From assembly GCA_947167765.1 (NCBI GenBank), contig CAMVJI010000010.1, positions 1 to 36,106 of the forward strand: DNA of 36,106 nucleotides, in the 5' to 3' direction. Every line of letters begins with the position of its first letter. Position 1 is the first letter of the stretch. A program made the translations under genes and the position numbers. The notes beneath the pieces are model-generated. The model worked only from the letters and a program-made list of their open reading frames with translations, had not been told where the DNA came from and ran no database searches. This document shows, piece by piece, positions 1,412-32,665 of this stretch. The stretch comes from an uncultured Butyrivibrio sp. (GTDB lineage: Bacteria; Bacillota; Clostridia; Lachnospirales; Lachnospiraceae).

Positions 1412-1624
1412 TTGGCAAAAGTGCTGTAAAAACGCCTATGGTTGGCAAAATCCATGAATAAAATACGCTCATCATTGGCAAAAACAATGATAATTCTCCC
1501 ATCGTTGGCAATATAGATGAAAAAAATTAGCACTCTTCAGATTAAAAATGTCATCTGAGAGTGCTTTTCTACTCTATTGGCAAACTTCTTGTAAAGGTGT
1601 TGGCAAAAGTTATGTAAATGGACA
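1391..1624 (+). mobile_element. Tn7-like right end 1 (orphan)
   Basis: TTGGCA boxes start at 1412, 1442, 1475, 1505, 1577 and 1600. The inner four are spaced 30, 33 and 30 bp and have the form TTGGCAAAA-N2-CATG-N-AAA-N-CGCCTAT. The array ends at ATGGACA (1618-1624), i.e. TGTCCAT read from outside, the TGT terminus typical of Tn7-like elements. Layout and orientation match the ends at 27825-27998 and 32492-32665. A gatgaaaaaagtcgac segment (1391-1406) already resembles the linker of the other arrays, so the end begins inside the recombinase gene. No tns genes are adjacent. Confidence 0.75.
1529..1565 (+). terminator. Terminator inside right end 1
   Basis: AGCACTCTTCAGAT pairs with ATCTGAGAGTGCT (one bulge) and is followed by TTTTCT. 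It would end transcription of recombinase 1. An A-tract on the other side makes it weakly bidirectional. It sits between the inner box array and the two terminal boxes, the same place as the terminators of the other two right ends, though its sequence is unrelated. Confidence 0.75.
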
Positions 1625-7910: not shown

Positions 7911-9186
7911 AGGCCTTTTCCCTTCTCTTGAAATAAAACTGATGGTGTAGTTTGCGCACTATCTGGTCGCACTCTGTGTAACAGTAATCCGTTTTGTTCC
8001 TGTCGTTATCGCCAAACGTAAGTGTTTCTTCCGCGCCTGTCATATTTCGCAGGTAGTCTGTCATATTCTGTACGGAGGCGTTCTTGCTATAGATTTTTAT
8101 ATATGAATATCCTTTGTAATCATCAGACGGATACGAAAGGATCTTAAGTTCTTCGTAGATATCGCTTCTTTTTATATCCTCTACCAGCTGCTCTATCTTT
8201 CTGGTCTCATCGACACACATCATGTATACTACCGGATGATCCTTTGGCCTTTCCTTGTTCAGGTAATTACGGTAGGGAGACTTATGCATTTTCCCATATA
8301 TATCTTTTTCTGCAGTATTCTTTAGCTCGTCATAATAGATGATAAGTACGTCTTCAAGAATTATTGTCGTAAAGATATTGACCCCCCTGCTTCTGATAAA
8401 GCTTTCTATGTTGCAGGCATGCTCTGCGGATATAACATATACCTTCGGGTACCTGTTTTCTTTTATGTCATAAAGGATTGCCCCATCCATCGCTATTATT
8501 GGTAGCTTCGGTTTTATATCAGGCATCCCCTCCAAAAATCCGGCTGGTGTCCGCAATGTCATGAATGTAAGCTGCATACCTTTTTCAAGCATGTTCTTTA
8601 TCATGATCTGACTAAATGGCGTTATTCCTGTCGAAAGACCATCCATAGCCCTATCAACATCTGCAATAAAGAGTGTGTCCCTGTCATATTCACCATGAAT
8701 ACATACTGAGTTCAGGACAAGTCCCACAAATATGCCTATAAGAGTATCCAGAGATCTGTTAGCAACGAATATGTATGGGTTTTCATCCATAAGATGATTT
8801 ACGACTATGCTCAGAAAAACAACACATGAAAAATACGATGCTTTCTTCTGCTTTATAACAACAGTTGTATAAATTATGGGGATCAATGCTAGTGATATGA
8901 TGCAGTAATGAAGAAAGCTATCACCAAGTTGCGGGACTCTTTGTTTTATCAAGATATATATCAGCCCATATGCTGCTCCTATGCCCGTCCCAACTGTTCT
9001 TTGAAGTGCGTTTTGAACTGTGTTTTTTGTCTGGTTCTGTATGCACCATAAAACTGCCAGTGCTGAATAAAACGGTGCTCCCTGTTTTCCACTCATGAAA
9101 TAAATAGCAAAGCAGATAAGCACTCCTAGTGCTGATTTTATAATCCGCATCCCTATACGCGGAACATATACCATGCCCTTTTCCAT
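7876..9186 (-). CDS. FUSC/aromatic-acid-exporter-like membrane domain fused to a Cof-type HAD domain
   Basis: This 436-aa fusion begins with about six membrane segments (residues ~12-170) resembling the FUSC/aromatic acid exporter family, including APFYSALAVLWCIQNQT and RTVGTGIGAAYG. The cytoplasmic part (~175-436) resembles a Cof/sucrose-phosphatase HAD fold: DVDRAMDG in the DxD motif place, PIIAMDGAILYD for the substrate cap entry, and a C-terminal FGDNDRNKTDY like GDxxND. Motif I keeps both Asp residues, but the usual DGT is changed, so phosphatase activity is uncertain. It may export the cluster's product or sense a metabolite. It lies between the cytidylate-kinase-like gene (3 bp away) and the ligase. 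Confidence 0.8.
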   Translation of the reverse strand: MEKGMVYVPRIGMRIIKSALGVLICFAIYFMSGKQGAPFYSALAVLWCIQNQTKNTVQNALQRTVGTGIGAAYGLIYILIKQRVPQLGDSFLHYCIISLALIPIIYTTVVIKQKKASYFSCVVFLSIVVNHLMDENPYIFVANRSLDTLIGIFVGLVLNSVCIHGEYDRDTLFIADVDRAMDGLSTGITPFSQIMIKNMLEKGMQLTFMTLRTPAGFLEGMPDIKPKLPIIAMDGAILYDIKENRYPKVYVISAEHACNIESFIRSRGVNIFTTIILEDVLIIYYDELKNTAEKDIYGKMHKSPYRNYLNKERPKDHPVVYMMCVDETRKIEQLVEDIKRSDIYEELKILSYPSDDYKGYSYIKIYSKNASVQNMTDYLRNMTGAEETLTFGDNDRNKTDYCYTECDQIVRKLHHQFYFKRREKAYEQCKPAKAYR

Positions 9187-9189
9187 ATA

Positions 9190-9783
9190 TCAGTCAAAAA
9201 CACTCCTCACAACTCCACACAGAATATCGGCGCTTGTATCAGCTCCAAACTTTCCGGAATCTATGCATATATCTCTGTTGTCAAAGATTCCTGCTATATC
9301 CTTACAATATTTACGCCTGTAATTCTCGCGGGCTTTATCGACATCCTGTATCATTCCCCTTGCAGTTTTTTCATCCATCCCCAGTATTGAAATGCAATTT
9401 TCAACCCTTTTCTCAATCGGCGCATATACATATATATCAAGCACACGCTCCATATCTCGCAAGCAGTAATCACCACACCTGCCGACTATAATACATGATT
9501 CTTTAGATGCAAAATCCCTTATTATGTTTGTCTGAACCTGAAATAATTCTTCCTGCATACTTACAGGCCCCATTCCAAGGGGATATCTTCTCTCTGCAAA
9601 GAAGCCTCCTGCGCGTTCTTCCTCTTTACTTATTTCAGAAACTGGAAGTCCCATGCGTTTTGCAGTATGTTCAACAATATCCCTGTCATAAAATTCTATT
9701 CCCAGTTCAGCAGCCATCTTCTGAGCTATTGTTCTTCCCATCGCGCCAAACTGCCTGGAAATCGTAATTACATATTTATCCAT
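9190..9783 (-). CDS. Cytidylate-kinase-like protein
   Basis: A 197-aa P-loop protein of the cytidylate kinase-like family common in Clostridia. The phosphate-binding loop is SRQFGAMGRTIA (residues ~9-20), and CIIVGRCGDYCL and YVYAPIEKRVE follow as in nucleoside monophosphate kinases. It differs from true Cmk by the variant P-loop and short lid, so the substrate is uncertain. Its start overlaps the permease stop by 8 bp, which places it firmly in the transporter/ligase operon. Confidence 0.82.
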   Translation of the reverse strand: MDKYVITISRQFGAMGRTIAQKMAAELGIEFYDRDIVEHTAKRMGLPVSEISKEEERAGGFFAERRYPLGMGPVSMQEELFQVQTNIIRDFASKESCIIVGRCGDYCLRDMERVLDIYVYAPIEKRVENCISILGMDEKTARGMIQDVDKARENYRRKYCKDIAGIFDNRDICIDSGKFGADTSADILCGVVRSVFD

Positions 9784-10582
9784 TGTACGCCCACCCTGTC
9801 TGCCTTCTCTCCTCCAATGCCAGAGTTTTTTTCACTTTTACACTCATCTTCCTTTTCTGTAGATTCCTAACTGTCATGGAAATCGAAAAATTGATCACAA
9901 AGTAAATGGTTGCAGCCAGACCAAACAGTACAAATACGTCAGATACATTTATTGAATTAAGCCCGTTATACCTGTTAGCTGCTGACAGAACCTGTTTGGT
10001 TCTTGCCATAAGCTCAATGACTGCAACATTTGCAAGAAATGAGCTGTCCTTGATAGTCGTTATTACCTGGCTTAAAAGTGTAGGAACAATAGCTCTGAAT
10101 GTCTGAGGCAACACGATATACCACATTATCTGAAGCATGGAGAATCCCTGCGATTGCCCGGCTTCAATCTGTCCATGAGAAACGGAATTCAATCCGCCCC
10201 TCACTATTTCAGCAATAACACCTGACGTATATAAAATAAGTGCCACAGCAGCCTTAAACAAAAGCTTGTTGTTCACTGAAGAAAGCCCGAACATCTGCCT
10301 GTCTACAAATCCCGGTGCAGGACAGAATACAACACATATGAAGATCCAGAATAACAATGGTGTGTTTCTGAACACTTCTATGTATATTACGGAAAGAGCC
10401 TTCAGTACTCCTGTCTGTTTACCTGTACAATAATTCCTCATAAGTGCCAGTACAGTTCCTATCACTATACTGAAAAGTACTGCAGCAACAGATATTATCA
10501 GTGTAAAGAGCACCCCCTGAAGTATGAATTTTATAATTGCAGGATTTCTCAGCATTGAAAGGCTGCCATCCAATGTGTTCAT
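9776..10582 (-). CDS. Polar amino-acid ABC transporter permease 2
   Basis: A 268-aa inner-membrane permease of the His/Glu/Gln/Arg ABC family (HisM/GlnP type), with five or more membrane segments and the EAA loop GQIEAGQSQGFSMLQIMWYIVLPQ (about 135-160) that contacts the ATPase. It pairs with the permease gene one base upstream, as in two-permease polar amino-acid importers. The substrate (glutamate, glutamine or cystine-like) cannot be decided from sequence. Confidence 0.9.
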   Translation of the reverse strand: MNTLDGSLSMLRNPAIIKFILQGVLFTLIISVAAVLFSIVIGTVLALMRNYCTGKQTGVLKALSVIYIEVFRNTPLLFWIFICVVFCPAPGFVDRQMFGLSSVNNKLLFKAAVALILYTSGVIAEIVRGGLNSVSHGQIEAGQSQGFSMLQIMWYIVLPQTFRAIVPTLLSQVITTIKDSSFLANVAVIELMARTKQVLSAANRYNGLNSINVSDVFVLFGLAATIYFVINFSISMTVRNLQKRKMSVKVKKTLALEERRQTGWAYNG

Positions 10583-10583
10583 A

Positions 10584-11300
10584 TCACGCCTCCTTTGGTG
10601 TGCCGTTCTGGAATACTTTCTGATCCCTCTTCTTTAATGATGTCTCCCACATCGATGCAAAGGATGAAAGAGGGAAACAGATAAGGAAGAATATTACTCC
10701 ACATACGATATATGCTGGAGCATACGAGCCACCTGTGTTTTCTCCTGTAACAAAGCTATACGTAAGCGATAAAAGATCTGCTCCACCCACTATGTATAAA
10801 CAGGAAGTATTTTTAATCATGTTCACAATTACATTTGTCATCGGTGGCAAAATCACTTTTATACTCTGTGGGATTATGATGTAAAACATCTGTCCTGCAT
10901 ACCCAAATCCCTGGGACTGGGCTGCTTCGAACTGGCCCTTCGGCACCGACTCTATCCCTGCCCTTATAACTTCTGCCATGTATGCTCCGGTATATATACC
11001 AAGTGCCAGGAATCCAGTGACTATAATTCCAGGACTGTGACCAGAAAAAGCCAGTGCATAGTATAGAAAGCACATCTGTAAAAGGACCGGTGTATTCTGA
11101 ATCACCTCAACATACACTCTGCTGATACTCTTCAGTATTTTTCTATTACTTGTTGCCATAAGTCCAAATATGATTCCAAGCAAAAGAGCTATCAGGAGCG
11201 CCACCACAGCTGTTTTCAATGTATTTGTAAGCCCGAGGAGGAATGTCCCCCGATAAATCCATATTTTATTCCATGCTCTTGGTGAGAATAATCCAGACAT
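10584..11300 (-). CDS. Polar amino-acid ABC transporter permease 1
   Basis: A 238-aa permease of the same family. The N-terminal membrane segment is followed by TLKTAVVALLIALLLG, the EAA-type loop GQFEAAQSQGFGYAGQMFYI (about 125-145) and FYIIIPQSIKVILPP. It forms the heteromeric channel with permease 2 and lies 17 bp after the binding-protein gene. Confidence 0.9.
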   Translation of the reverse strand: MSGLFSPRAWNKIWIYRGTFLLGLTNTLKTAVVALLIALLLGIIFGLMATSNRKILKSISRVYVEVIQNTPVLLQMCFLYYALAFSGHSPGIIVTGFLALGIYTGAYMAEVIRAGIESVPKGQFEAAQSQGFGYAGQMFYIIIPQSIKVILPPMTNVIVNMIKNTSCLYIVGGADLLSLTYSFVTGENTGGSYAPAYIVCGVIFFLICFPLSSFASMWETSLKKRDQKVFQNGTPKEA

Positions 11301-11317
11301 TGCCGGTCCTCCGTTAC

Positions 11318-12232
11318 TTAATCAAGTCCATTTTCTGAAACAAGTTTAGCAATTGTTCCATTATCAAAGCTCTCGGTTACAAGATCCTCTGCAACCTTTG
11401 AAAGGCCTGATCCCTTCGTGGTTGCGATACCATAATTCTGTGGTGAGAACTCTGCATCGATATATGATCTTCCCTCTGTCTTGTATATAGCAAGTATGGA
11501 CTTATCGACACAGAACGCATCAACTTCACCGGCACTAAGTGCTGTAGAGATTGTTGGATAATCATCATACAGCTGGAACTTTATACCATCAGTCCAGGTG
11601 GCCGGATCAAAGCTTTCTTCATCAAAGCCATCACCACTTATAAGACCTTTTTCAATCATTGCTTTTACAAGAGCCTTAGCTGATGTTGATCCGGAAGAGA
11701 CACCTACAGTTGCATCAGCCAAATCATCAAGTGTCTTAATTCCTTTTGAATCCTCAACAAGAACGCTTACATAATCTGTATAATACGGTGTTGTGAAATC
11801 CCAGCTCTCTTTTCTTTCATCAGTGATTGTGAATGTAGCGAGTACACAATCAATATCTCCTGAATCAAGAAGTTCCGTTCTTGTTGCTGCTGTTACAGCC
11901 GTAAATTCAACATCAACTCCAAGTTTGTCTGCCAAAGCCTTTGCAAGCTCAATTTCCAATCCGGTATACTCCCCTGTAAGAGGGTCTTCATATCCAAATC
12001 CCATTACAGCATTCTTAACACCGACCTTTAGAACTCCTCTGTCGACAATTGCCTTTACATCTTCTTCCAGGCTGTCATCTGCCGGCTGCTCTGCTAAAGG
12101 CGCCTCCTGAGCTGAATCTGTTATCTCTGATACTTCTGCAGGCTCGGAAGCGCTTCCGCATGCAACGAGCAATGCTCCCATCATCCCTGCTGCCACTGCG
12201 CTTAATGATCTCCTCATGATCTTTTTCTTCAT
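11318..12232 (-). CDS. Amino-acid ABC transporter substrate-binding lipoprotein
   Basis: A 304-aa periplasmic-binding-protein family 3 member. It has a lipoprotein signal peptide with lipobox LVAC (Cys25), so it should be anchored outside the membrane. An acidic linker (about 30-62) is followed by the SBP_bac_3 fold: LKVGVKNAVMGFGYEDPLTGEYTGLEIELAKALADKLG, the hinge region DYVSVLV, and VDAFCVDKSIL. The acidic/aromatic pocket implies a polar amino acid ligand. It delivers substrate to the two permeases and the ATPase encoded around it. Confidence 0.92.
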   Translation of the reverse strand: MKKKIMRRSLSAVAAGMMGALLVACGSASEPAEVSEITDSAQEAPLAEQPADDSLEEDVKAIVDRGVLKVGVKNAVMGFGYEDPLTGEYTGLEIELAKALADKLGVDVEFTAVTAATRTELLDSGDIDCVLATFTITDERKESWDFTTPYYTDYVSVLVEDSKGIKTLDDLADATVGVSSGSTSAKALVKAMIEKGLISGDGFDEESFDPATWTDGIKFQLYDDYPTISTALSAGEVDAFCVDKSILAIYKTEGRSYIDAEFSPQNYGIATTKGSGLSKVAEDLVTESFDNGTIAKLVSENGLD

Positions 12233-12294
12233 AATTTTTTCCTCCTCGTGTTTTCTATAGACAGTACAGCTACTTTAGTCTGTACGTTGTCATC

Positions 12295-13023
12295 TCATCT
12301 GATGATCTTTCCCAGGAATTGTTTTACTCTTTCACTCTCCGGATTATTGAAAAAGTGTTCCGGTGTTCCGGATTCTATGATCTGCCCATCTTCCATGAAA
12401 ATCACCCGGTCGGCTACCTGCCTCGCAAATCCCATTTCATGGGTGACTACCACCATTGTTATGTTTTCCTTAGCCAGCTTGATCATTACATCAAGCACTT
12501 CCTGAATGGTCTCGGGATCAAGCGCTGATGTTGGTTCATCAAACAAAATGATCTTACTTTGTGAGCAAAGAGCCCTGGCAATTGCTATTCTCTGTTGTTG
12601 TCCCCCGGAAAGTGTCGTCGGATATACATCTGCTTTATCCTTTAATCCCACGATATCCAGATAATGGTATGCCAGCTCCTCAGCTTCTTTCTTGGATTTA
12701 TGATGAAGCTTCATAGGTGCAAGTGTAAGGTTTTTAAGAACAGTCATATGTGGATAGAGATTAAACTGCTGGAATACCATCGAAGTACTTTCGCGAACCA
12801 CTTTGGTTTTATTCTTTGAAGTCAACTCAGTCCCGTCTATATAAACATGTCCACTACTTGGTGCCTCCAGAAAATTCATGCAGCGAACTGTTGTGGATTT
12901 TCCTGATCCGGACGGACCAATAATTACCAATTTTTCTCCCTCTTCAACCTCAAGATTCACATCTTTTAATACGTGAAGATCCCCAAAGCTTTTATTTACA
13001 TTTTCCAGCTTGATCATTGCCAT
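12295..13023 (-). CDS. glnQ: Amino-acid ABC transporter ATPase (GlnQ/HisP type)
   Basis: A 242-aa ATPase with Walker [10 protein letters not shown] (~36-44), Q-loop [13 protein letters not shown], signature LSGGQQQR, Walker [13 protein letters not shown] and H-loop VVTHEMGFA. The polar amino-acid transporter subfamily is clear (FNLYPH after the Q-loop). It is the first gene of the transporter/ligase operon. AGGAAAGG lies 12 bp before the ATG at 13023 (a second ATG is two codons on). The symbol is a family label; the amino acid is not proven. Confidence 0.9.
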
Positions 13024-13210
13024 AGCTTATTTTTTCCTTTCCTAAATGCAAAGATGGCGCTCCGGTATCAAGCCGAAACGCCATTGTCTCATTGCACTTA
13101 TATAGGATTAGTTATAATGAAAAAGAATAAAAAAAGGCGCTCCGAAACACTGTGTGAATCAAAACGCCTTTGTTTGTATACAAGTATACGGTTTGTATTT
13201 ATTTTGACAA
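13024..13210 (-). promoter_or_regulatory. Promoter, operator and two-hairpin leader of the transporter/ligase operon
   Basis: Minus-strand -35 TTGTCA (13205-13210) and -10 TATACT (13183-13188) are 16 bp apart. The perfect palindrome TTGTATACAA (13174-13183) touches the -10; this wording is typical of GntR-type operators. The leader (~150 nt) holds hairpin 1 (13133-13171, AAAGGCG/CGCCTTT) followed by a U-run, so it is a terminator or attenuator. Hairpin 2 (13054-13084, ATGGCG/CGCCAT with an inner CGG/CCG stem) follows. Both hairpins have GGCGTTT on the 5' side and CGGAGCGCC on the 3' side. The matching ends suggest a duplicated regulatory RNA element; no known riboswitch was recognised. Confidence 0.5.
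13133..13171 (-). terminator. Attenuator-like terminator in the glnQ leader
   Basis: Stem AAAGGCG/CGCCTTT with an inner ACAC/GTGT pairing, followed on the minus strand by TTTTTTT. It stands about 5 nt after the predicted transcription start and 110 bases before glnQ, so it could end most transcripts early unless prevented. Confidence 0.55.
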
Positions 13211-13270
13211 TTGCCATTTTATACAAAAATTTTGCGATAATATCCTGGTCTTATCATTATTTTTGCCAAA

Positions 13271-17660: not shown

Positions 17661-20231
17661 TCATGTTTTTAGCAACAGGTGATTCTTTTCCAAATCGTAG
17701 AAAAGAGTGCATTCAGCATATTTCATGTCAAAGACCTTTACGATGTCTGCATCGCTGTCCGTATCCGTAAAATCTGCGGTAATATTTCTAAAAGCTGAGA
17801 GCTTATCCGGTGAGAAATGCAGAGTATTCTCGTTTGCAAAAACAGCGGTATATAGAATATCTGCTTCTACAAGATCCTGGAAAATGTGGCTTCCATAGGA
17901 CAGCTCCGGGTTATAGCCAGCCTCCTTTTCCTCAACTTCACATACCGCCTCAAATTCACTGATATCCGCAAAGGTTGTAGGTACCCCAAGTTCAGGAGAT
18001 GAAGTACCTATACGCCCTGGAACGACCAACATCATGTGCCTGCCCTGTTCTCTGAATGTCCAGTTTACCTTGCCTATGATCCTTGCAATCCGGGTCTTAT
18101 CAGCGTATGGCATTTCATAGTATGCCTTGGGATAAACATAGACTATCAGGTCAATAGGAACACTCCTCGAGAGCCCCATTGAAGAGCCTATGCTTTCAAG
18201 GATGATGTTATCCTCCGGTACACTTTCGGGAACAACTACTTGTGCTGTATCCTTGAATACCTGAAGCGGCCTGCATTGCAGGAGGTTTATGGAATACTCA
18301 CCGTTTTCCGAAAGGTTCATTGTAAACTCTATATCTACAGGATGCTCATATTCCTTCTGGATTATCTGCATAAGCTGCTGCATCTGTGTCATTATGGTCT
18401 GCTTTTTCACAAGGCCTCTACAGGATATGAATCTCACATCCCGGTATATACCACGCTCTTTTAAAGAATCCTCCACTTCATAATCGTGTTCGAGAAGTGT
18501 GTTTATCAGATACATCGGAAGCTTGCCTTCAATATCTCTAAGCTCCAATCGTTTCAATGCATGCTCGCTCACGTCCATGGCTTCTACCGCCCGCTGAGAA
18601 AACTGGTGCTTTTCAGCTACGGTGACTGATGAAGTTGCCTCCGGCATATCAAGGCTTACAAGACGGGGATATGAGCCCATAGTCCTGTCCACAGCTGATG
18701 TACCAAGACCCATGACAAGCCTTAACATTCCAGCCTTTGGTTCGATGTCCGCAAGGAATTTGTATGGACTGTAGGAATAGCCAACACCAGCAGCACAGGG
18801 CATATAATAAGGGCCATAATAAGACCCTGAAACTCTCTGTATTAGCAGTGCCATCTGCTCATCCCTTTTATCAAGTCCACGTCTCTTTCTGTAATCAAGG
18901 GCAGACAGGCTCATGGTGCTGGCATATACTGTTCTGATGGCATTCTCAAATTCTTCAAGTCTCTCCTCTAAGGTGCCCCTGTTTGCACAGAATACCGATT
19001 CATACTTTCCGGCAAAAGCATTTCCAAATCCATCCTCGAGGATACTGCTTGACCTTACAATAAACGGATCCTGCCCATAGTATTCCAGGATATGCTTAAA
19101 CTGAGTCCTTAGTTCTTCTGAAAAAGAGCCCTGCTTCAGCTTTGTTGCAAACTCATCGGCAAGTGAAAAATACTCTTCGTCAGTCCTTTGGCGAATCCGC
19201 AGATCCCAGAACTCATTGTCAACGATATAAGTATAATAAACATCCGAGCCCATAAAGAATGAATCGTGGGGTTCCAACACTTCGTTTATCTCAGGATTCT
19301 CGTTGCGGATGATAGCCCTGGCAAGAAGCATTCCGCAGGCCTTTCCTCCTATGAGTCCTGTCCCTATCATATGATTCCTGACAGCAAAATAGTCCTCAGG
19401 CTCAAAATGCTTTTTTACCATCTGTCTCATCTTCTCATCCCTGGTCATCATGATATTGCACATCATGTTGCAGGACTCTGTCATATCCATATGGCTGTCA
19501 TACTGGAGCTTTGCCGTATTAAAAAACTTATCCCAGAAATCAACATACTGATCCTCCCCAGGTCTCTGGAAATTATCAAGAAGCTGATAGAAACGGCTGG
19601 ACTGGACGCCATCAAGGATTGGCCTGAAGGTTCCTTCATCTTTTTTATAAATATGCGGAAGGAACATAGTCTCTGAATCCCTGTTCCAGACCTTCTCAGG
19701 GCGTACATAAACATTTTTAGAATCAGAATATACATCAAGAAAAAGCTGCGTTGTATTGAGGATTTTATTGACTGCGTGAAAAGAATGCTTTCCCCGTATT
19801 ATCGGAAAAAACGCAACAGTGTCGAGAATAAAGAGGAACGGACACGTAACCCTAAAGAAATTCCCCATCATGAGGTCAGTAGCCCAGCGTATCTGCAGCT
19901 CTGACAAGCAGTCAAAAACATAGAAGGCATCCTTTCCTTCTTTTTCAATGATATTATGTATATCTACGGTGAACGTCTCAAAGCGGTGTGTTAGCGGTAC
20001 CTGATATATCTTTACCTCAGGACAGTCTTCCACAAGCGGCTCGTGGCTAGCAAATCTGAAGTAGATTATGTTCCTCCCATCCTTCTTCGCCTGCTCAACG
20101 TAAGGATCAACAAACATTCTAAACTCCGAAAGGTCAGAAACCCTGAAAACAACGTTGTCACCAAGCCTGATGTTATCAAGCGCTTTATCCATTTCCGGTA
20201 TCCCGGACAATACACGTTCAAATGCTGCCAT
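17661..20231 (-). CDS. PEP/pyruvate-binding (PPDK-type ATP-grasp) protein with degenerate KaiC-like N-terminus
   Basis: An 856-aa protein. Residues ~1-190 resemble a KaiC/RecA fold (SGIPEMDKAL, then FYVFDCLSEL at the Walker B place), but the Walker A loop is lost (FRVSDLSEF). Residues ~285-650 form the ATP-grasp domain of PEP synthase/PPDK: LIGGKACGM, FIVRSSSILEDGFGNAFAGKYESV and INLLQCRPLQ. The phosphohistidine swivel and PEP-binding domains are absent, so it is not a full PEP synthase. The C-terminal ~200 residues (GRIGTSSPELGVP, GSHIFQDL) match the tail of related clostridial and archaeal proteins. It heads the operon. Possible role: ATP-dependent phosphotransfer or sensing. AGGAGG precedes ATG 20231. 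Confidence 0.85.
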   Translation of the reverse strand: MAAFERVLSGIPEMDKALDNIRLGDNVVFRVSDLSEFRMFVDPYVEQAKKDGRNIIYFRFASHEPLVEDCPEVKIYQVPLTHRFETFTVDIHNIIEKEGKDAFYVFDCLSELQIRWATDLMMGNFFRVTCPFLFILDTVAFFPIIRGKHSFHAVNKILNTTQLFLDVYSDSKNVYVRPEKVWNRDSETMFLPHIYKKDEGTFRPILDGVQSSRFYQLLDNFQRPGEDQYVDFWDKFFNTAKLQYDSHMDMTESCNMMCNIMMTRDEKMRQMVKKHFEPEDYFAVRNHMIGTGLIGGKACGMLLARAIIRNENPEINEVLEPHDSFFMGSDVYYTYIVDNEFWDLRIRQRTDEEYFSLADEFATKLKQGSFSEELRTQFKHILEYYGQDPFIVRSSSILEDGFGNAFAGKYESVFCANRGTLEERLEEFENAIRTVYASTMSLSALDYRKRRGLDKRDEQMALLIQRVSGSYYGPYYMPCAAGVGYSYSPYKFLADIEPKAGMLRLVMGLGTSAVDRTMGSYPRLVSLDMPEATSSVTVAEKHQFSQRAVEAMDVSEHALKRLELRDIEGKLPMYLINTLLEHDYEVEDSLKERGIYRDVRFISCRGLVKKQTIMTQMQQLMQIIQKEYEHPVDIEFTMNLSENGEYSINLLQCRPLQVFKDTAQVVVPESVPEDNIILESIGSSMGLSRSVPIDLIVYVYPKAYYEMPYADKTRIARIIGKVNWTFREQGRHMMLVVPGRIGTSSPELGVPTTFADISEFEAVCEVEEKEAGYNPELSYGSHIFQDLVEADILYTAVFANENTLHFSPDKLSAFRNITADFTDTDSDADIVKVFDMKYAECTLFYDLEKNHLLLKT

Positions 20232-20292
20232 ACCTACAACCTCCTATTGCATTTACAGCCATACAAAAGAAAAAAGCAAAGTCTGCCAACAT
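20218..20292 (-). CDS. Possible 24-codon upstream ORF overlapping the PEP/pyruvate-binding gene start
   Basis: ATG at 20292 is preceded by AAAGGAG nine bases away and opens a 24-codon frame, Phe-rich at the start (MLADFAFFFC), that runs through the leader terminator. It ends at TGA 20218-20220, past the main start at 20231. Translation would interfere with both the hairpin and main initiation. The Phe codons partly arise from the U-run, so this may be chance. Confidence 0.35.
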   Translation of the reverse strand: MLADFAFFFCMAVNAIGGCRYGSI

Positions 20293-20350
20293 TTCTGTAA
20301 GCTCCTTTGCTTCTTTATTTATAATAGCACATTCTTTTTCCTTCAACACT
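20274..20350 (-). promoter_or_regulatory. Promoter and attenuator hairpin of the PEP/pyruvate-binding operon
   Basis: On the minus strand a -35 TTGAAG and -10 TATAAA are separated by 17 bp (about 20320-20350). The transcript would start directly before hairpin AAGCAAAG/CTTTGCTT (20274-20312), which is followed by TTTTTTC. A terminator at the very 5' end, before the AGGAGG and start at 20231, indicates attenuation. The loop contains the Shine-Dalgarno and ATG of the short upstream ORF. Confidence 0.45.
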
Positions 20351-20402: not shown

Positions 20403-21116
20403 TCATTCCTTAGATTCTCTGACCCTCTTTCTTTTTGCAGCCTCCAAAACGCTTGCAAGATTACCTTCGTTAAGCAGCTTCGGATAATTATCATCGATAT
20501 CCTTGAGGATTACCCGGTTATCAGACTCTGACGATCTGGTACTGTCATATAGCTCCTCCAGATTGTCCGCAGAAAAGATACTATCAAGAAGCTTTCTTGC
20601 TTCTTCAGGATGAGAAAGATTTTCAAAGCTCTCATAAAAATTCACAACAGCTTTCTCTATTAGCTCTCTCGTGATATTCTCTGACTTTATGATGCCGACA
20701 GCATCTGATATATCATACTTGTATGGCCTCATTGAAGCCAGTTTCATTGCAACATCGTACTCTGATGGGAGCATCCTTACTTCAAGTATGTTTGCAAACA
20801 TTTTATAATGCTTGGAATACTGCCGAATCTTTTCAGTATATGAGCTGGTTTTTCTAAATTCCTCGTTGATCCATCCAGTCGGAAGTCCGTTTCTGTCGCC
20901 CACGATGTTTATGGCATCTTTCATAGAAGATGATGCAAAAATCAGACTATCGATATCCGTTGTAGATGGACGAAATCCATATTTTGAAACTATTGCTGCA
21001 CCGCCTATAATTACAATCTCTGCTGGAATGTTCTTTCTATTAAGCTTTTTATACTCTTTTGCCAGCTGAAACAACAGATTGTCTATATTTTCTTTTGTAA
21101 ATAAAACCTTATCCAT
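20403..21116 (-). CDS. Nucleotidyltransferase-fold protein (DUF6036-like), probable toxin-side partner
   Basis: A 237-aa protein with the nucleotidyltransferase signature IIGGAAIVSKYGFRPSTTDIDSLIF (~36-60): a GG motif followed by DxD. This fits DUF6036/AbiEii-like proteins, many of which are toxins or partners of HTH antitoxins that transfer nucleotides to RNA. The C-terminal half is helical and charged. It overlaps the upstream HTH gene by 8 bp. A toxin role is inferred from fold and pairing. Confidence 0.7.
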   Translation of the reverse strand: MDKVLFTKENIDNLLFQLAKEYKKLNRKNIPAEIVIIGGAAIVSKYGFRPSTTDIDSLIFASSSMKDAINIVGDRNGLPTGWINEEFRKTSSYTEKIRQYSKHYKMFANILEVRMLPSEYDVAMKLASMRPYKYDISDAVGIIKSENITRELIEKAVVNFYESFENLSHPEEARKLLDSIFSADNLEELYDSTRSSESDNRVILKDIDDNYPKLLNEGNLASVLEAAKRKRVRESKE

Positions 21117-21669
21117 TTATAATCTCACATTCTACTATATTAAAATTAAGAAACTCAGGAATAGCGTGATCCATAGCCTCTTTGTGTGCATCTTTTCCCA
21201 AGAGTTTTTCTGACAATTCTGTATCAGCAGGGAATACAGGCTTCTCCAGTTTATAGCGCCTTATTTCTTCATATTCATTACACTTTGGAAGTCCGTTACG
21301 CTTACTTAGATAATCCAGCATTGCAAGAAGATAAAATGCCTCAGCCTTCATATCCAGTTTCCAGTAATAATTTATTTTTTTCTTTTCCAGGAGGTCGATC
21401 ACATAATCAATTTCGCCCATCCGATTTACCAAATGACACTGCTCGCTTCTGAACAAATTGAAAGAATGATTCTTGTCACACAGTGTAAGAAGTTCATCTA
21501 TTGTAAGATTAAGTGCGTCCGCTATCTTTTTCACAACACCAAGGGCACAGTTAAGGATATCCACCTTGCCATTAACGATGTTAAAGACCGTAGGATACGC
21601 TACCAGAGCGCTATTAGCAACTTTATATATCGATATTCTGTTGTCTTCCAGGTATTGCTTAATGTACAT
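21109..21669 (-). CDS. HTH (Xre-type) regulator, probable antitoxin
   Basis: A 186-aa protein whose first ~65 residues form an Xre-like helix-turn-helix (KVANSALVAYPTVFNIVNGK, then IADALNLTIDELL). The C-terminal 110 residues are unassigned. It starts 8 bp before the nucleotidyltransferase gene ends its overlap, as in antitoxin-first operons. Upstream, an inverted repeat (21696-21703 and 21722-21729) is a plausible self-operator. Confidence 0.7.
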   Translation of the reverse strand: MYIKQYLEDNRISIYKVANSALVAYPTVFNIVNGKVDILNCALGVVKKIADALNLTIDELLTLCDKNHSFNLFRSEQCHLVNRMGEIDYVIDLLEKKKINYYWKLDMKAEAFYLLAMLDYLSKRNGLPKCNEYEEIRRYKLEKPVFPADTELSEKLLGKDAHKEAMDHAIPEFLNFNIVECEIING

Positions 21670-21695
21670 AGTTGGCTCCTCCTTCTGCTTAAATT

Positions 21696-21729
21696 ATATA
21701 CTCATAATTATATATACGCAAGAGTATAT
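21696..21729. promoter_or_regulatory. Operator-like inverted repeat upstream of the HTH/nucleotidyltransferase pair
   Basis: ATATACTC (21696-21703) and GAGTATAT (21722-21729) form an 8-bp inverted repeat, 18 bp apart, 27 bp before the HTH gene start. The position suits autoregulation. Confidence 0.4.
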
Positions 21730-21799
21730 ATAATTCTAAAAATAATCCGAACCAGAACAGTAACCTGGCAGTTATATATTCCAAGGATCCAAAAAGCTA

Positions 21800-21828
21800 T
21801 TGTATATCTAATCGATATACATTAGAAT
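21800..21828 (+). promoter_or_regulatory. Promoter and operator of the RelBE-like pair
   Basis: TGTATATC (21801-21808) and GATATACA (21814-21821) form a perfect 8-bp inverted repeat with a 5-bp centre. It overlies a -35-like TTGTAT (21800-21805) and the spacer before -10 TAGAAT (21823-21828; 17 bp). A binding site for the RelB/DinJ-type antitoxin is likely. GAAAGG (21835-21840) is the ribosome binding site. Confidence 0.55.
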
Positions 21829-21840
21829 ATAAGTGAAAGG

Positions 21841-22167
21841 ATGGTGATGACCATGGCAACTAAAACAGCAAACGTTCTTGCAAGAGTAGAACCTGAAGTT
21901 AAGGAAGAAGCAGAAAGCATCCTCAATCAGCTTGGAATCCCGGCTTCTGTAGTAATAAACATGCTTTACAAGCAGATCATAATGACAAAAGGAATTCCCT
22001 TTTCTCTGACTCTTCACAAGGCTCCTACTGCTGTGGATGAAATGAGCAAAGACGAATTTGATTCCATGATGGCCAAGGGACTGGCACAGGCAAAAGCAAA
22101 CGAAAGCCGCCCTGCTTCTGATGTGCTCTCAGACATAAGAAACAACATCAAGGAGTGGACTAAATGA
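21841..22167 (+). CDS. RelB/DinJ-type antitoxin
   Basis: A 108-aa antitoxin with an N-terminal ribbon-helix-helix (ANVLARVEPEVKEEAESILNQLGIPASVVINMLYKQI, about 8-45) typical of RelB/DinJ, and a disordered acidic tail that would wrap the toxin. Three in-frame ATGs occur at 21841, 21847 and 21853; with GAAAGG ending at 21840, the second or third is the more likely start. It overlaps the toxin start by 4 bp. Confidence 0.85.
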   Translation: MVMTMATKTANVLARVEPEVKEEAESILNQLGIPASVVINMLYKQIIMTKGIPFSLTLHKAPTAVDEMSKDEFDSMMAKGLAQAKANESRPASDVLSDIRNNIKEWTK

Positions 22168-22496
22168 ATGTTTATGATGTAAGAGTCACCACTCAGGCAC
22201 AGGAGCAGATAAGAGATATTGCCTACTATATTGCAGTAACGCTTCATGCCCCAGATGCAGCTCAGGCCATGGTGGATGATCTGGATGAAGTATTTGAAAC
22301 AATCTCACAGAATCCCGAAAGGCAGTTCCTTGTTGAGCAAGAGCCCTGGCACAGTGAAGGCGTCAGAAAGATCAAGGTAAAGAATTACCTGGTCTATTTC
22401 TGGATCGATGTAGAGAACGCTGCAGTACAGGTGATCGGTGTATGTTATGCAAAACGGGATCAGAAAAAATTTCTAAATGGGATAGATATAGAATGA
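22164..22496 (+). CDS. RelE/ParE-family toxin
   Basis: A 110-aa toxin of the RelE/ParE superfamily, with VRVTTQAQEQIRDIAYYIA and the C-terminal strands VKNYLVYFWIDVENAAVQVIGVCYAKRDQ. The set of residues (no clear RelE catalytic Arg/Tyr trio) looks closer to the ParE type. Co-translated with the antitoxin (ATGA overlap). It converges with tniQ, the two sharing a bidirectional terminator. Confidence 0.82.
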   Translation: MNVYDVRVTTQAQEQIRDIAYYIAVTLHAPDAAQAMVDDLDEVFETISQNPERQFLVEQEPWHSEGVRKIKVKNYLVYFWIDVENAAVQVIGVCYAKRDQKKFLNGIDIE

Positions 22497-23913: not shown

Positions 23914-24913
23914 CTGAACTTATCCTCCCATATCCTGTGACTTCTATCGCAAGTGCGATATCCTTCTTTCTAAGGAAATACTGTGGCCCTATACCGCCTG
24001 TGCCGTATGAAATGAGACATTGCAGGAACGACTGCATGAAATACTGCATAGGTATGTCCTCAACGCTGATAGAATATTTGATCTTCACATCATTGAATGC
24101 ATCCCAGTAGTCTCCAGCTATACTAAGGAATGTTGCCTTTTTGTCAGCATATGCGTATGGGAAGAAGAATTCCGCAAGCCCTACGTTGCTGTCAATAGGG
24201 AGTGCTTCGTGGATCTTGATCTTATCCAGTTCCGCAAGGCAGTATGACAGCTCTTCGCAGTTTCTTATTCCGCAGAACTTATATTCGTTGAGGAAGAACC
24301 GCTCTACTATCTGGTTCTTTTTCTGAAGTATGAAAGCATTCTTTGTGCTGAGCATCTCCTGAGGAGTGCCAACAAAGAAGATCGACAGCTGTACCTGGTG
24401 CTGAAGACGCAGGGTGTTGTATATATCCATCAGCCAGTAATACTCATCACCATCCAGCTTATATGCCTCATCAATTATAAGGACCGCCTTAAAGAACGGC
24501 GTTTCTGCAGCCTTTATGGCAATGTAATTGATGACCTTTATCTTCAGTTCCAGTGCTGTTATGCGGTTATACTTTCCGATATCTATCCCAAGAACATTGA
24601 GTATACCGGCATAGAATGCTTTATCAGTGGCCTTGGTGCCATGTTCTGTAAGCGACCATACGATTATTGGGAATTCCTTGCCGTATCTTACGTGGAGTGC
24701 GTCCACAATATATGCAATGGCTGATGTCTTGCCTATTCGTGACCTGCCATATATCATTGCTCCGCACACACCGGATAATAGCCATCCGTTTATCTTGTAC
24801 AAAAGCTCAAAGATACTGTTTGTTGCTATATGGAAGCTTGCAGACTGCATGTAGGAAATCGTTGCCGCAGCTGTGATGGCCTGCTGGTCTTCGTAGATAC
24901 TCTCGGTTATCAT
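23906..24913 (-). CDS. tnsC: TnsC/TniB-family AAA+ ATPase
   Basis: A 335-aa AAA+ regulator. Walker A is GRSRIGKTS (56-64), Walker B AVLIIDEAYKL (~150), and FFVGTPQEM is the sensor region. TnsC-type proteins polymerise on target DNA, bridging TniQ with the TnsAB transposase. The short length resembles TniB and compact TnsC proteins, without the long Tn7 TnsC extensions. AGGAGG precedes ATG by about 5 bases, and the gene overlaps the tnsB end by 4 bp. Confidence 0.88.
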   Translation of the reverse strand: MITESIYEDQQAITAAATISYMQSASFHIATNSIFELLYKINGWLLSGVCGAMIYGRSRIGKTSAIAYIVDALHVRYGKEFPIIVWSLTEHGTKATDKAFYAGILNVLGIDIGKYNRITALELKIKVINYIAIKAAETPFFKAVLIIDEAYKLDGDEYYWLMDIYNTLRLQHQVQLSIFFVGTPQEMLSTKNAFILQKKNQIVERFFLNEYKFCGIRNCEELSYCLAELDKIKIHEALPIDSNVGLAEFFFPYAYADKKATFLSIAGDYWDAFNDVKIKYSISVEDIPMQYFMQSFLQCLISYGTGGIGPQYFLRKKDIALAIEVTGYGRISSDE

Positions 24914-26853
24914 AGGGACCTCCTTTCCTTATTGCTCAGCATATGTATCCAGGTCTCTTCTGACGTCATGTCCTGTACTTTTGGATCGAGAGCCCTGTCT
25001 TTTTCCCGGGCCTTTGGATCAATCGGTATAAGCTCTGCCTTCTTTTTTCTGCCTGGGCCTTTCTTTTTGGCATCCTGCTCCCGCTGCATTATATCCACTC
25101 TCGTTCTGGCTTTTTTGCTCTTTGCCGCCCTCTTTTTAAGACTCTGTTCCAGATCAGTCAGCGGGGTTTCAAAGTCCGAATGTTCTTTCTTATTTGCGTT
25201 TGCGTACTTTATGGCCAGCTTTCTGGTGACGATCGAGTGTTTCTTATGCCCATACTCTCCTACGGCCCGTATCTTTTCGATATAATCACAATCTTCGCTG
25301 TATGCCTCAATGCTGGATATATCATCGGGATCGATCCTAAGAAAGAGTTTCTTTCCCAGAAACTCATAGTTCACAGATAAAATATCCCCGCGGTATCTGG
25401 CACCAAGATAGTTTATATGTGGCCTCTTTCCACTCTTTATGCTGCCGCGTACAGTAACCTCTTTGTCAAAAAAGAGCATCCTGTCAGCTTCCTTCTTTTC
25501 CATGTCCGAAGCTATATGGGGCAGCATCCCCTGTTCCAGACGCTCTCCCATTACCTCCAGCGGAGTCCTGTTGAGGAGCGCACTATGAGGAGTATTGTTA
25601 TACTCACAGATGAGGTACTCCATGATCTGGCATACTTCATCAAATGTGATGCCATATTTTATTGCCTGCTTCCTGGCATCTTTAGCCTTGATATCCCTGC
25701 TGTTACTGCCGGTTGTCCCGGGAAGTGTATGAAACCCCTTTATTTCTATGGTCTTAAAGAATCTCTCGACTATACCCCGGGTCTCAGGCGTTGAAACTGC
25801 TCCATAGTTTAATGTAATGCCCAGCTTTTCAGTAAATGTATCCATTACATGATCAGTCAGGTGGGACTTCGCATTATCAAGCATGATCTCATCAAACATG
25901 GCATACTCAAGCTCCGGATATCTTGATGATGGGAATCCGTCCATATCCTTATTTTCAAGATCTTTAAGGGTATAATTCATCTTCCTGTGAGGGAGGATAG
26001 TATTTTTTACAGCTTTACAGATGTCGTGCTGGTTATAGTTTGTCTCCTGGCTCATGTGATAGCCGACGATACATCTGGTCGCCACGTCTATAACAGGCAG
26101 AAACCAGCATCTTTCACACACATCATTTACTTATGTTCCATCGTCCAGCTCTATCTGGGTAATATATAAAAGATCGATCTTATGCCCGTCTATCTGGCCG
26201 CAGGAAAAAGGAGCAACAGGAGACGGACTGTAATTCTCACCATATCCGGTACTGGCGGCTTTCCTTGCTGAGTCCTCATCAGTCCTTCTGTTCGCAAGTT
26301 TTACGCACCCCGCCTCAAGTGATTTTACATAACGCCTCAATGCCTGGTATCCTTTAGACGCCGTATTTAAGGGATAATCATCAGGCCCTATGCCGATCTT
26401 AAGACACTCAGACACGAACCTGCCGTGGAGCCTTGTAAGGCTCATGTTCTTTTCAAGGGTATATTTTTCATATCCAAAATAGTTTCCCTCAATGAAAGGA
26501 ATCAGTTCCTCATGGCATTCAAGGAGCTTTAAAAATCTTCCGTTCGAAGCCACACCTTCCTTATCGCCTGTTCCCTTTGTTTTTTTCCAGGGGCAGAGAG
26601 CTGCATAGCCAGTAAAATTGCCGTTTCCGTCCCTTGAGTAGCACTTAGAGACATATTTGACGATATGGCTCTTATCTATCCCGGTCTTGCTGTTGATTTC
26701 CTCAAGCGTCTCACCATCTATGTACATGTCAACGGCTCTTTTACGGGCTTCATACAGAGCTTTTCTTTCCGCAGACATTGCTTCCGCCAAAGGCTCCGGC
26801 CATATCACCCTGATATCCATGAGCTCTGTGCGGTCAAATTTTCTGTTCGCCAT
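24910..26853 (-). pseudogene. tnsB: TnsB-type DDE transposase split by an in-frame TAA
   Basis: The frame encodes 646 residues plus one internal stop, TAA at 26131-26133 (codon 241). The N-terminal part has a HTH region (RKRAVDMYIDGETLEEINSKTGIDKSHI). The first catalytic Asp D222 (QIDGHKIDLL) comes 19 codons before the stop; the second Asp (MLDNAKSH) and the Glu (RGIVERFF), 37 residues apart, come after it, followed by a Mu-type C-terminal barrel and a basic tail. No single piece holds the triad. The downstream part could start at GTG 26121. I take ATG 26853 as the start (GGAGG nine bases upstream); a longer frame to 26946 overlaps tnsA more. Everything else is intact, so the mutation is recent, read through, or a sequencing error. 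Confidence 0.82.
26131..26133 (-). other. Premature stop codon (TAA) in tnsB
   Basis: The context is GGA ACA TAA GTA AAT GAT GTG. Frame is kept on both sides and the flanking protein sequence is contiguous with the family. One base change from AAA, GAA or CAA explains it. No slippery sequence or obvious readthrough signal is seen. Confidence 0.8.
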
Positions 26854-27490
26854 TACAATGCACCTCCGTTTTATACGAGATCTGTTTGTCCTCAATACCG
26901 GTAAAAGAAATGGCTCCCCTAAAATAGAGGTCTGCCAGATAGTCAAATCCTGATGAGGATGTGATCCTTCCTGCTGTTATGAGCTGGCCTATGGTCATGG
27001 GGCCTTTTATGGACAGGTACCTTAGAAAAGCATCATCTGCACCTGCATCGATACCATGTACGCGTCTGGCCTTTCCAAGCAGATATGATATATTCCGCAT
27101 CCAGAATGGTCCCTTATAGATATCCTTATGACCAAGGATCTCAATGTGTTCATTAGCGCTCACTCCCCACAGGCTGAATTCATCAACTGCTTTGCTCTCA
27201 TCCGGCTTTGAGATGACAAGCTGGAATGCATCCGTTCCATCCGCATAAACAACATAGACCGACGGGCAGACTGTTATCCCTCTGCCATCAACATGGTATT
27301 TCTGCTTCAGCGGCCTTTCGCAGTACCACAGCACACGGTGGTCCATCTCAAGGCATAACAGGTTGTCAAACTGGAGCTGCCCAAGCGCAGAGATTTTGCG
27401 TGCAAGCTTTCTGCTGAAGCATACATGATAGCTCTTCATGTACGATTTGCCTCTTGGTTCTTCTAAAGGTACAGTAAACCTATACTTCAC
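26834..27490 (-). CDS. tnsA: TnsA-like protein with degenerate endonuclease site
   Basis: A 218-aa protein that aligns with TnsA. In Tn7 TnsA the nuclease uses E63, D114 and K132. Here the equivalents are Q40 (LGQLQFDNLLCLEMD), S77 (CPSVYVVYADG) and K95 (VISK), with exactly the same 18-residue spacing between the last two. Strand cutting is thus unlikely, while the C-terminal part (about 120-218) that in Tn7 contacts TnsC is retained. GTG start at 27490 with GAGGAGG seven bases upstream. First gene of the tns operon. It could be a structural adaptor. Gene identification is by synteny and alignment by eye. Confidence 0.78.
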   Translation of the reverse strand: MKYRFTVPLEEPRGKSYMKSYHVCFSRKLARKISALGQLQFDNLLCLEMDHRVLWYCERPLKQKYHVDGRGITVCPSVYVVYADGTDAFQLVISKPDESKAVDEFSLWGVSANEHIEILGHKDIYKGPFWMRNISYLLGKARRVHGIDAGADDAFLRYLSIKGPMTIGQLITAGRITSSSGFDYLADLYFRGAISFTGIEDKQISYKTEVHCNGEQKI

Positions 27491-27824
27491 AAAGACCTCC
27501 TCTATTCTGTTTTTAGCTTTTATTTATCCAGGAAAAGACGGAATATACCCCAAAAGACGTTATAACAATTAAATATTCGTTATATCTCGTAGATTTGATT
27601 GAAAAATAACCTGGGGTATGGTACGATTTGTGTACAGAAAGTGGTCACAGCCATTTGTCAGATGGCTGCAACTCTACTGTAACCTGGCATCACAAATTGC
27701 TGCGCGTCCGTCAAAACATGCTGCAATAGGTGGTGCTTTTCTTTTCCCATAAATCGAGATTAACATAATATTGATATTTAATCTACGTATTTATGTATAA
27801 AAGTTTATTTATTTTCGCCCATCA
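27491..27824. promoter_or_regulatory. Upstream region of the tns operon
   Basis: This gene-free stretch holds a minus-strand -35-like TTGTTA (27563-27568) with a weak -10 (TATTCC or TATATT near 27540-27547). A 7-bp inverted repeat TACCCCA (27546-27552) / TGGGGTA (27612-27618) brackets the promoter, 59 bp apart, and could bind a regulator. A small hairpin CAGCCAT/ATGGCTG (about 27648-27668) lies further out. The rest, up to the TnsB-box array, is AT-rich without ORFs. Confidence 0.35.
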
Positions 27825-27998
27825 TTGGCAAAACTCATGTAAAATCTCCTATCGTTGGCAAACTCCATGAAAAATCGACCATAAATGGCAAGCTGAGTGA
27901 AAAATTTTTACATCAAGGTTGCCAATGTACAAAAAAGGAAGCCCGGAAAATCGGGCTCCCGAAAGATCATTTATTGGCATCATTTATGAAAATGGACA
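27820..27998 (-). mobile_element. Tn7-like right end A (adjacent to tnsA)
   Basis: TTGGCA boxes at 27825 and 27855 and a variant ATGGCA at 27885 are spaced exactly 30 bp, in the form TTGGCAAAA-N2-CATG-N-AAA. An inverted TTGCCAA (27919-27925) follows, then a terminator, then a terminal TTGGCA (27974) and ATGGACA (27992-27998). Read from outside, the terminus is TGTCCATTTTCAT. The position 330 bp before tnsA is that of the Tn7 right end. Confidence 0.8.
27934..27960 (-). terminator. Insulating terminator inside right end A
   Basis: GGAGCCCG/CGGGCTTCC-type stem (AGCCCG 27940-27945, CGGGCT 27952-27957) followed on the minus strand by TTTTTT. It faces inward and would stop transcription entering the element from the histidine kinase side. 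Confidence 0.75.
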
Positions 27999-32361: not shown

Positions 32362-32485
32362 AATATCCTATTTTTCGTGTGAGCTGCATCCTGTATGTGC
32401 ACCTGGACATTCTCGCTGTCATACATAACTTAAATTATACGCATATATGTATCACCCCCTGGAAGCTACCAACCCCCATTTTCTC

Positions 32486-32665
32486 CCATCGTTGGCAAAA
32501 TCCGTGTAAAATCGCCTATTATTGGCAAAACTCATGAAAAATTGACCATCAGTGGCAAGATCGGTGAAAACAATTTACATAAAGTTTGCTAATGCACAAA
32601 AAAGGAAGCCCTGAAAAACGGGCCTCCGAAATATTATCTATTGGCATTATTCATGAAAATGGACA
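32486..32665 (-). mobile_element. Tn7-like right end B (orphan)
   Basis: TTGGCAAAA boxes at 32492 and 32522 and a variant GTGGCAAGA at 32552 lie exactly 30 bp apart, followed by an inverted TTGCTAA (32586-32592), a terminator (32604-32627), a terminal TTGGCA (32641) and ATGGACA ending at 32665. It matches end A position by position, including the AAAAAAGGAAGCC-flanked stem, yet is clearly diverged. No tns genes lie nearby; only Fic, the small ORF and the kinase lie inward. Confidence 0.78.
32598..32630 (-). terminator. Insulating terminator inside right end B
   Basis: GGAGGCCCG/CAGGGCTTCC-type stem (32604-32627) with a minus-strand TTTTTT. It faces inward, stopping transcription from the MATE gene, as in end A. 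Confidence 0.7.

Follow-up and report, generated by a model that had tools for sequence, protein, structure and literature searches.

Sequence comparison indicates that the TnsA of a Tn7-like operon from an uncultured Butyrivibrio sp. is without all three catalytic residues of the nuclease, and that it is one of many altered TnsAs in its family. Our best reading is that pseudo-nuclease TnsA is recurrent and is kept as a scaffold in cointegrate-forming elements. The data suggest that some Tn7 relatives use TnsA as a building block, copying instead of excising. For the stretch of DNA analysed here (36,106 nt; the window), we consider it fairly probable that it holds a Tn7-like element whose pseudo-nuclease TnsA is kept as a transpososome scaffold on a cointegrate route.

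The open reading frame (ORF) that a preliminary description had assigned, at 26834..27490, to the TnsA of a Tn7-like operon is real; it lies on the minus strand, running from 27490 to 26834 with a GTG start and encoding 218 aa, and is the first gene in the order tnsA–tnsB–tnsC–tniQ on that strand (Table 1). The tnsB ATG, placed by eye at 26853, overlaps the end of tnsA. Pfam matches to the operon are clear for TnsC and weak for TnsB and TniQ, and the Pfam search of the window TnsA gave no match. A PDB search with the TnsC profile returned nothing at 0.001, and the TniQ-like protein is without the second zinc finger that both of its aligned relatives have. In the available text of PMC11406308, a Tn7-like transposon is defined by tnsB and tnsC plus tnsA and/or tniQ in a single operon, which is the arrangement found here.

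The repeat search of the window for terminal repeats with TnsB sites yielded no element ends. A TTTGCCAAYGATRGG-like motif has 11 matches at ≤3 mismatches, against 3.84 expected, and forms clusters with a spacing of about 30 bp at window 1405-1512, 27818-27862 and 32485-32559, one of them immediately upstream of tnsA and one adjoining a tyrosine-recombinase-like ORF (299-1408). The repeats upstream of tnsA were considered as a transposon end and rejected, because clustering at two further places in the window makes the motif no marker of the element. Among five same-genus genomes searched for an empty site, G891 alone shares the left flank and is rearranged there; homology to a same-genus genome ends at window 20329. 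In G891, window 17823-20329 and 8051-13233 have homologues that lie next to each other, in an order unlike that of the window. On the other side lies a histidine kinase whose best matches in the five genomes are 37-39% identical over partial length.

Table 1 Features of the Tn7-like operon and codons of the TnsA active site, in window positions
Feature	Position	Strand	Basis
tnsA-like gene, predicted PD-(D/E)XK fold without catalytic residues	26834..27490	-	Profile, alignment, predicted fold
Q40 codon (Tn7 E63)	27371..27373	-	Alignment, profile; codon counted by eye
R59 codon (Tn7 Gln82)	27314..27316	-	Profile; codon counted by eye
S77 codon (Tn7 D114)	27260..27262	-	Alignment, profile; codon counted by eye
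I93 codon (Tn7 K132)	27212..27214	-	Profile, spacing; codon counted by eye
K95 codon	27208-27206	-	Two residues beyond the catalytic Lys position
tnsB, DDE residues present, TAA in frame	24910..26853	-	ORF reading and alignment
tnsC, AAA ATPase, 335 aa	23906..24913	-	Pfam AAA_22 1.6e-9, TniB 1.6e-6
tniQ-like gene, 460 aa	22531..23913	-	Pfam TniQ E 0.09, under cut-off
Possible element cargo: HTH and nucleotidyltransferase (DUF6036) genes (-), RelB/ParE-type pair (+)	20403..22496	- and +	

As far as comparison can tell, the 218-aa protein is a TnsA. A profile of 21 TnsAs (A5), in which the window protein is itself one of the rows, matches it at 2.6e-55 and matches Tn7 TnsA (1F1Z) at 2.4e-7. An AlphaFold2 model (pLDDT 91.0, pTM 0.87) predicts a TnsA fold, that is, a PD-(D/E)XK nuclease fold with a C-terminal domain, with Tn7 TnsA as the best match: at E ≤0.001, Foldseek returned four matches, to 1T0F (TnsA with a TnsC peptide; two chains), 9BW1 (the TnsABCD transpososome) and 1F1Z (TnsA), at modest TM-scores by query length of 0.45-0.57. 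For the altered Burkholderia multivorans protein (L027), too, the prediction is a TnsA (pLDDT 89.1), and its model has four matches at the same threshold (1T0F in two chains, 1F1Z and 9BW1; TM 0.41-0.59 by query length). The C-terminal half, which had been described as retained together with its contact to TnsC, is present as a domain and confidently modelled; the TnsC contact itself found no support. Tn7 TnsC is 555 aa long and that of the window 335 aa, so the TnsA-binding tail of Tn7 TnsC is probably absent here; the title of record 1T0F names 'TnsC(504-555)'.

One scan of the genome collection gave 24 relative loci, and identity of the window TnsA to aligned relatives is low (15-26%). Searches of viral contigs and of plasmids with the window TnsA alone gave no relatives within the limits applied. 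Across 397 genomes of the window's family, the only other full-length TnsA match and the only other TnsB match at 1e-20 are both in G278, whose TnsA is the same as that of [Clostridium] polysaccharolyticum (L014). One relative, L011, lies on a Klebsiella grimontii plasmid, where the gene is annotated TnsA. A short TnsA fragment in another genome of the window's family (L008 8232-8477) keeps CEQP, D and VKY, and no TnsB is present among the ORFs listed around it.

In the profile alignment, Tn7 E63, Gln82, D114, Q130 and K132 correspond to window Q40, R59, S77, L91 and I93, the columns of E63 and Gln82 being counted on the printed profile alignment to 1F1Z and D114, Q130 and K132 being what we take to be the Tn7 TnsA residue numbers. 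The catalytic triad E63, D114 and K132 is thus represented by Q40, S77 and I93, and L91 stands in place of the first residue of E-x-K (Tn7 Q130). That E63 has become Q40, as first proposed, is borne out by a 21-row family alignment, by its profile and by the profile match to 1F1Z, and the change of D114 to S77 by the alignment and its profile; a shifted E or D was not seen in the alignment. The proposal that K95 is the kept equivalent of K132, at a spacing of 18 residues, fails. Of 30 intact reads, which include one duplicate contig, 29 show a D-to-K spacing of 16 and one shows 15, whereas K95 lies at S77 +18, after the predicted strand 87-92, and I93 occupies the site. Because K95 is two residues past the catalytic position, the Lys is lost too. 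Q40 together with the 37/16 spacing therefore places S77 and I93 at the catalytic positions. The identical 37/16 spacing is given for PseCAST TnsA (E34/D71/K87) in the accessible part of a preprint (PMC13228271).

Five sites were read in each TnsA: E63, Gln82, D114, the first residue of E-x-K and K132. In a sampling led by similarity, which is not a census, 60 distinct TnsAs have all five sites readable, 29 of them intact (E, Q, D, E, K) and 31 altered. Every altered TnsA misses at least one of E63, D114 and K132 as well as the E of E-x-K, and in all 31 Gln82 is replaced, by Arg in 27 and by Lys in 4; it is Q in 29 of 29 intact TnsAs. Intermediates with one marker changed alone were not found among the 60. 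In more distant TnsA families Gln is present in 14 of 14, with D, E/Q and K (E63 is readable in 4 of the 14). Excluded before the count were loci repeating another locus in one genome, TnsA families above E 1e-22 (L059-L072) and loci with sites unread or no TnsA in the stretch (L012, L013, L018, L020, L025, L028, L033, L035, L044, L058, L089 and L127). Partial reads from the excluded loci agree with the rule: L025 has Q, D, E and K; L028 has R and D without K; L044 has K then R; L127, in two pieces, has A and R, then D; and L089 has E only. L013, the closest TnsB relative, is cut ahead of the TnsA nuclease domain, and its genome gave one weak match elsewhere.

In the order of the five sites, the altered states are Q R S L I in the window; N R N I E in a Bacillales element (L112); E R S K R in Paenibacillus phytorum (L026); E R N V K in Bacillus pumilus (L023); E K D x x in three Paenibacillaceae (L021, L097 and L098); and E K D K S in L104, a solo TnsA from Clostridia whose 19.9-kb stretch contains no TnsB. 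The remaining 23 are proteobacterial, mainly from Burkholderiales, and keep D114 but neither E63 nor K132 (L027, L029, L030, L032 (two), L038-L043, L113, L118-L126, L128 and L129). The Q/S pair of the window was seen in no other sequence. Because the same signature recurs in other TnsAs, a copy-specific accident is rejected as the whole explanation; with 31 of 60 family members altered, this copy is not alone in its mutations and the design is no one-off. L032 (303-2032) carries two different altered TnsA genes head to head on a gammaproteobacterial contig, each with TnsB sequence. DndB-like genes (PF14072) lie 3′ of three altered Paenibacillaceae operons (L021 13229-14251, L026 12986-13984 and L098 14689-15765).

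A maximum-likelihood TnsB tree (50 rows), free of TnsA columns, gives five changes between the intact and altered states (5th-95th percentile of 200 bootstrap trees, 5-5), and strongly supported branches alone force two. The altered groups on it are the proteobacterial clade; L026 with L112; L021 with L097 and L098; L023 (with L020, TnsA unread); and the window alone. Among 43 rows with both traits, all three markers are changed in 18 and none is in 25; this coupling is striking but not formally proven, as significance is out of reach of a sign test with too few independent pairs.

In the large proteobacterial clade, altered tnsA is under purifying selection. Its dN/dS is 0.11-0.24 (five pairs with dS <1, all proteobacterial), and that of intact tnsA is 0.14-0.19 (three pairs with dS <1), a fourth intact pair of short fragments (L114/L115) giving 0.94. 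Saturated comparisons comprise six more altered pairs, five finite at 0.13-0.24 and one with infinite dS, and four more intact pairs, three finite at 0.09-0.14 and one infinite. The DDE residues of TnsB are present in 23 of 24 altered operons with an aligned TnsB (the exception, L041, is truncated) and in 23 of 25 intact operons (the other two are incomplete). Taken together, the dN/dS values and the DDE residues indicate that altered TnsA is maintained beside intact TnsB in this clade.

The window copy itself differs in its TnsB, in which a TAA at 26133-26131 lies in frame between the first catalytic Asp and the remaining catalytic domain, so that the DDE triad is not in one open frame as it is in the relatives. 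With 310 contigs and 79% completeness the assembly is fragmentary, and the stop may be an error in it. As it reads, with the TnsB frame interrupted, the copy is probably stranded and immobile by itself. The stop also speaks for plain decay, in which a dying element's TnsA drifted without selection, as do the long TnsB branch of the window (1.14), the single TnsA match in its genome, with no second copy, and its place on the tree: next to it stand L013, whose TnsA is unread, and L103, and all three of the nearest relatives with a readable TnsA (L103, L014 and L105) are intact. Because these relatives are intact and the Q/S pair was seen nowhere else, decay keeps some probability for the window lineage, for which no close relative was found to form a dN/dS pair. 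We nevertheless regard it as unlikely, given that the window tnsA, tnsC and tniQ frames are open despite the long branch, that the Gln82-to-Arg change is the same as in other altered TnsAs and that the fold is confidently predicted; decay would also leave the proteobacterial clade, with the dN/dS given above, unexplained.

The 5′ cut might instead come from a host nuclease or from a second TnsA acting in trans, with the pseudo-TnsA serving as adaptor. Such a cutter is conceivable in that Tn7-like systems allow TnsA and TnsB to be separated, but the one TnsA match in the window genome, at the completeness given above, makes it improbable. That the active site has moved, with basic residue 82 replacing K132 in a protein that still cuts, is very improbable for the window TnsA, since this protein and L112 keep none of E63, D114 and K132, and the 23 proteobacterial TnsAs keep D114 only. 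It is plausible for the four Lys-82 TnsAs (L021, L097, L098 and L104), which keep E63 and D114 and have gained Lys at 82 and which we therefore treat separately from the scaffold reading, and migrated residues are noted in pseudoenzyme reviews (PMC10211241, in the sections available). An alignment error that hides shifted E and D residues is barely credible even at the low identity to relatives, as the alignment to L007 shows no gap between C57 and S77, the flanking invariant R31, E48, C57 and E58 fix the register, the spacing matches that of intact members and the predicted helix and strand places agree.

We also looked for recombinases of the tyrosine class near the operons, using a profile derived from nine ORFs that these loci carry, in stretches of which many are truncated by contig ends. 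Matches lie within 310 nt of 6 of 19 altered operons (L021, a 187-aa piece, L038, L041, L042, L043 and L112) and at 1.5 kb from altered L113; L028 and L033 (TnsA unread) have one within 70 nt. DUF3701 and Phage_integrase are found in L038, L041, L042 and L043 (Phage_integrase in L043 just under the cut-off), and Phage_integrase in L112. Three of 12 further plasmid loci have a match in their stretch. The intact loci (n=30, one duplicate) also have matches, two weak ones within 310 nt and seven more within 2 kb, and a clean association of altered TnsA with an adjacent recombinase was thus not established. For some of the altered elements, the pattern is in keeping with replicative transposition. 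Two weak matches in intact elements, L024 11238-12776 in the tnsC/tniQ gap and L096 13251-14807 between two tniQ-like ORFs, recall by our own comparison the target selector TnsF.

For the scaffold reading, we infer that 5′ cleavage does not take place, that cointegrates form and that residue 82 fills a pocket. TnsA would stay part of the transpososome, where it would support TnsB structurally and activate it, and the 5′ strands at the element ends would be left uncut. TnsB would cut and join the 3′ ends only, giving a branched intermediate that replication would turn into a cointegrate. Host recombination would then resolve the cointegrate, or a tyrosine recombinase encoded next to the operon would do so in some relatives. 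The positive charge of Arg or Lys at site 82 may take up the metal pocket left empty. A scaffold and activator in a replicative transpososome is favoured because TnsA D90A of VchCAST (V. cholerae I-F) gave >95% cointegrate reads (PMC8188705, in the text available) and because in PseCAST the TnsA N terminus, which contacts the 5′ phosphate, is required for transposition (preprint PMC13228271, accessible part). The suggestion that a TnsA scaffold without nuclease takes the cointegrate route therefore stands as the best reading, the loss being recurrent and, in the large proteobacterial clade, maintained; this particular copy is probably not mobile by itself.

The window resembles heteromeric Tn7 and Tn7-like systems (TnsA, TnsB, TnsC and TniQ/TnsD) in gene order, TnsA fold, TnsB DDE residues and TnsC ATPase, and differs from Tn7 in a TnsA without E63, D114 and K132 and with Arg at Gln82, and in an interrupted TnsB frame. 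Active-site mutants of Tn7 TnsA were reportedly the subject of work by May and Craig in 1996. Like laboratory mutants such as VchCAST D90A (PMC8188705, available text), the altered proteins would be present without cutting and are predicted to give cointegrates; unlike them, they are natural, occur in several lineages and carry the coupled Gln82 change. Tn5053-type elements and type V-K CASTs, which are replicative and have no TnsA, share the predicted cointegrate product; the window, by contrast, keeps a tnsA-like gene, and the profile search found no tyrosine recombinase within 19 kb of the operon that could be its own resolvase. TnsF of Tn6022, an inactivated tyrosine recombinase that acts as target selector (PMC10293859, available portion), offers a parallel, a Tn7-like element putting a dead enzyme to use, but TnsA is a different enzyme with a different role.

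At E ≤0.001, PF08722 matches 28 of 29 intact TnsAs and 4 of 31 altered ones. Among 41 plasmid records listed, the annotated ones say hypothetical (some name the adjoining TnsB too) and the others are unannotated. The available text of Benler et al. (PMC8649781) lists Pfam TnsA models among its search models and describes branches without tnsA that gain resolvases; some branches reported as tnsA-less may carry a hidden pseudo-TnsA. No report of a natural dead TnsA was found in the accessible portions of PMC8649781, PMC10293859, PMC11406308, PMC10188703, PMC13228271, PMC8188705, PMC3384475 and PMC10702557, nor in a wider search of partly available literature with most subscription journals outside its scope.

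Tentatively, these elements might form a third Tn7-like design that combines a heteromeric composition with a replicative mechanism. In it, TnsA would have turned more than once into a structural subunit without metal, locked by Arg/Lys-82; that residue would fill the old metal pocket or hold the uncut 5′ strand and so direct the transpososome to replication. TnsA determines whether transposition in this superfamily is cut-and-paste or copy-and-paste, a choice of practical weight for transposon-based genome tools. If the third design is true, pseudo-TnsA escapes family models that are tuned to the catalytic motif, some elements reported as tnsA-less may carry it and surveys may overcount tnsA loss. 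The change of Gln82 to Arg or Lys would then be a sequence signature that predicts the pathway, and natural non-cutting TnsAs would make a non-catalytic role of TnsA directly testable.
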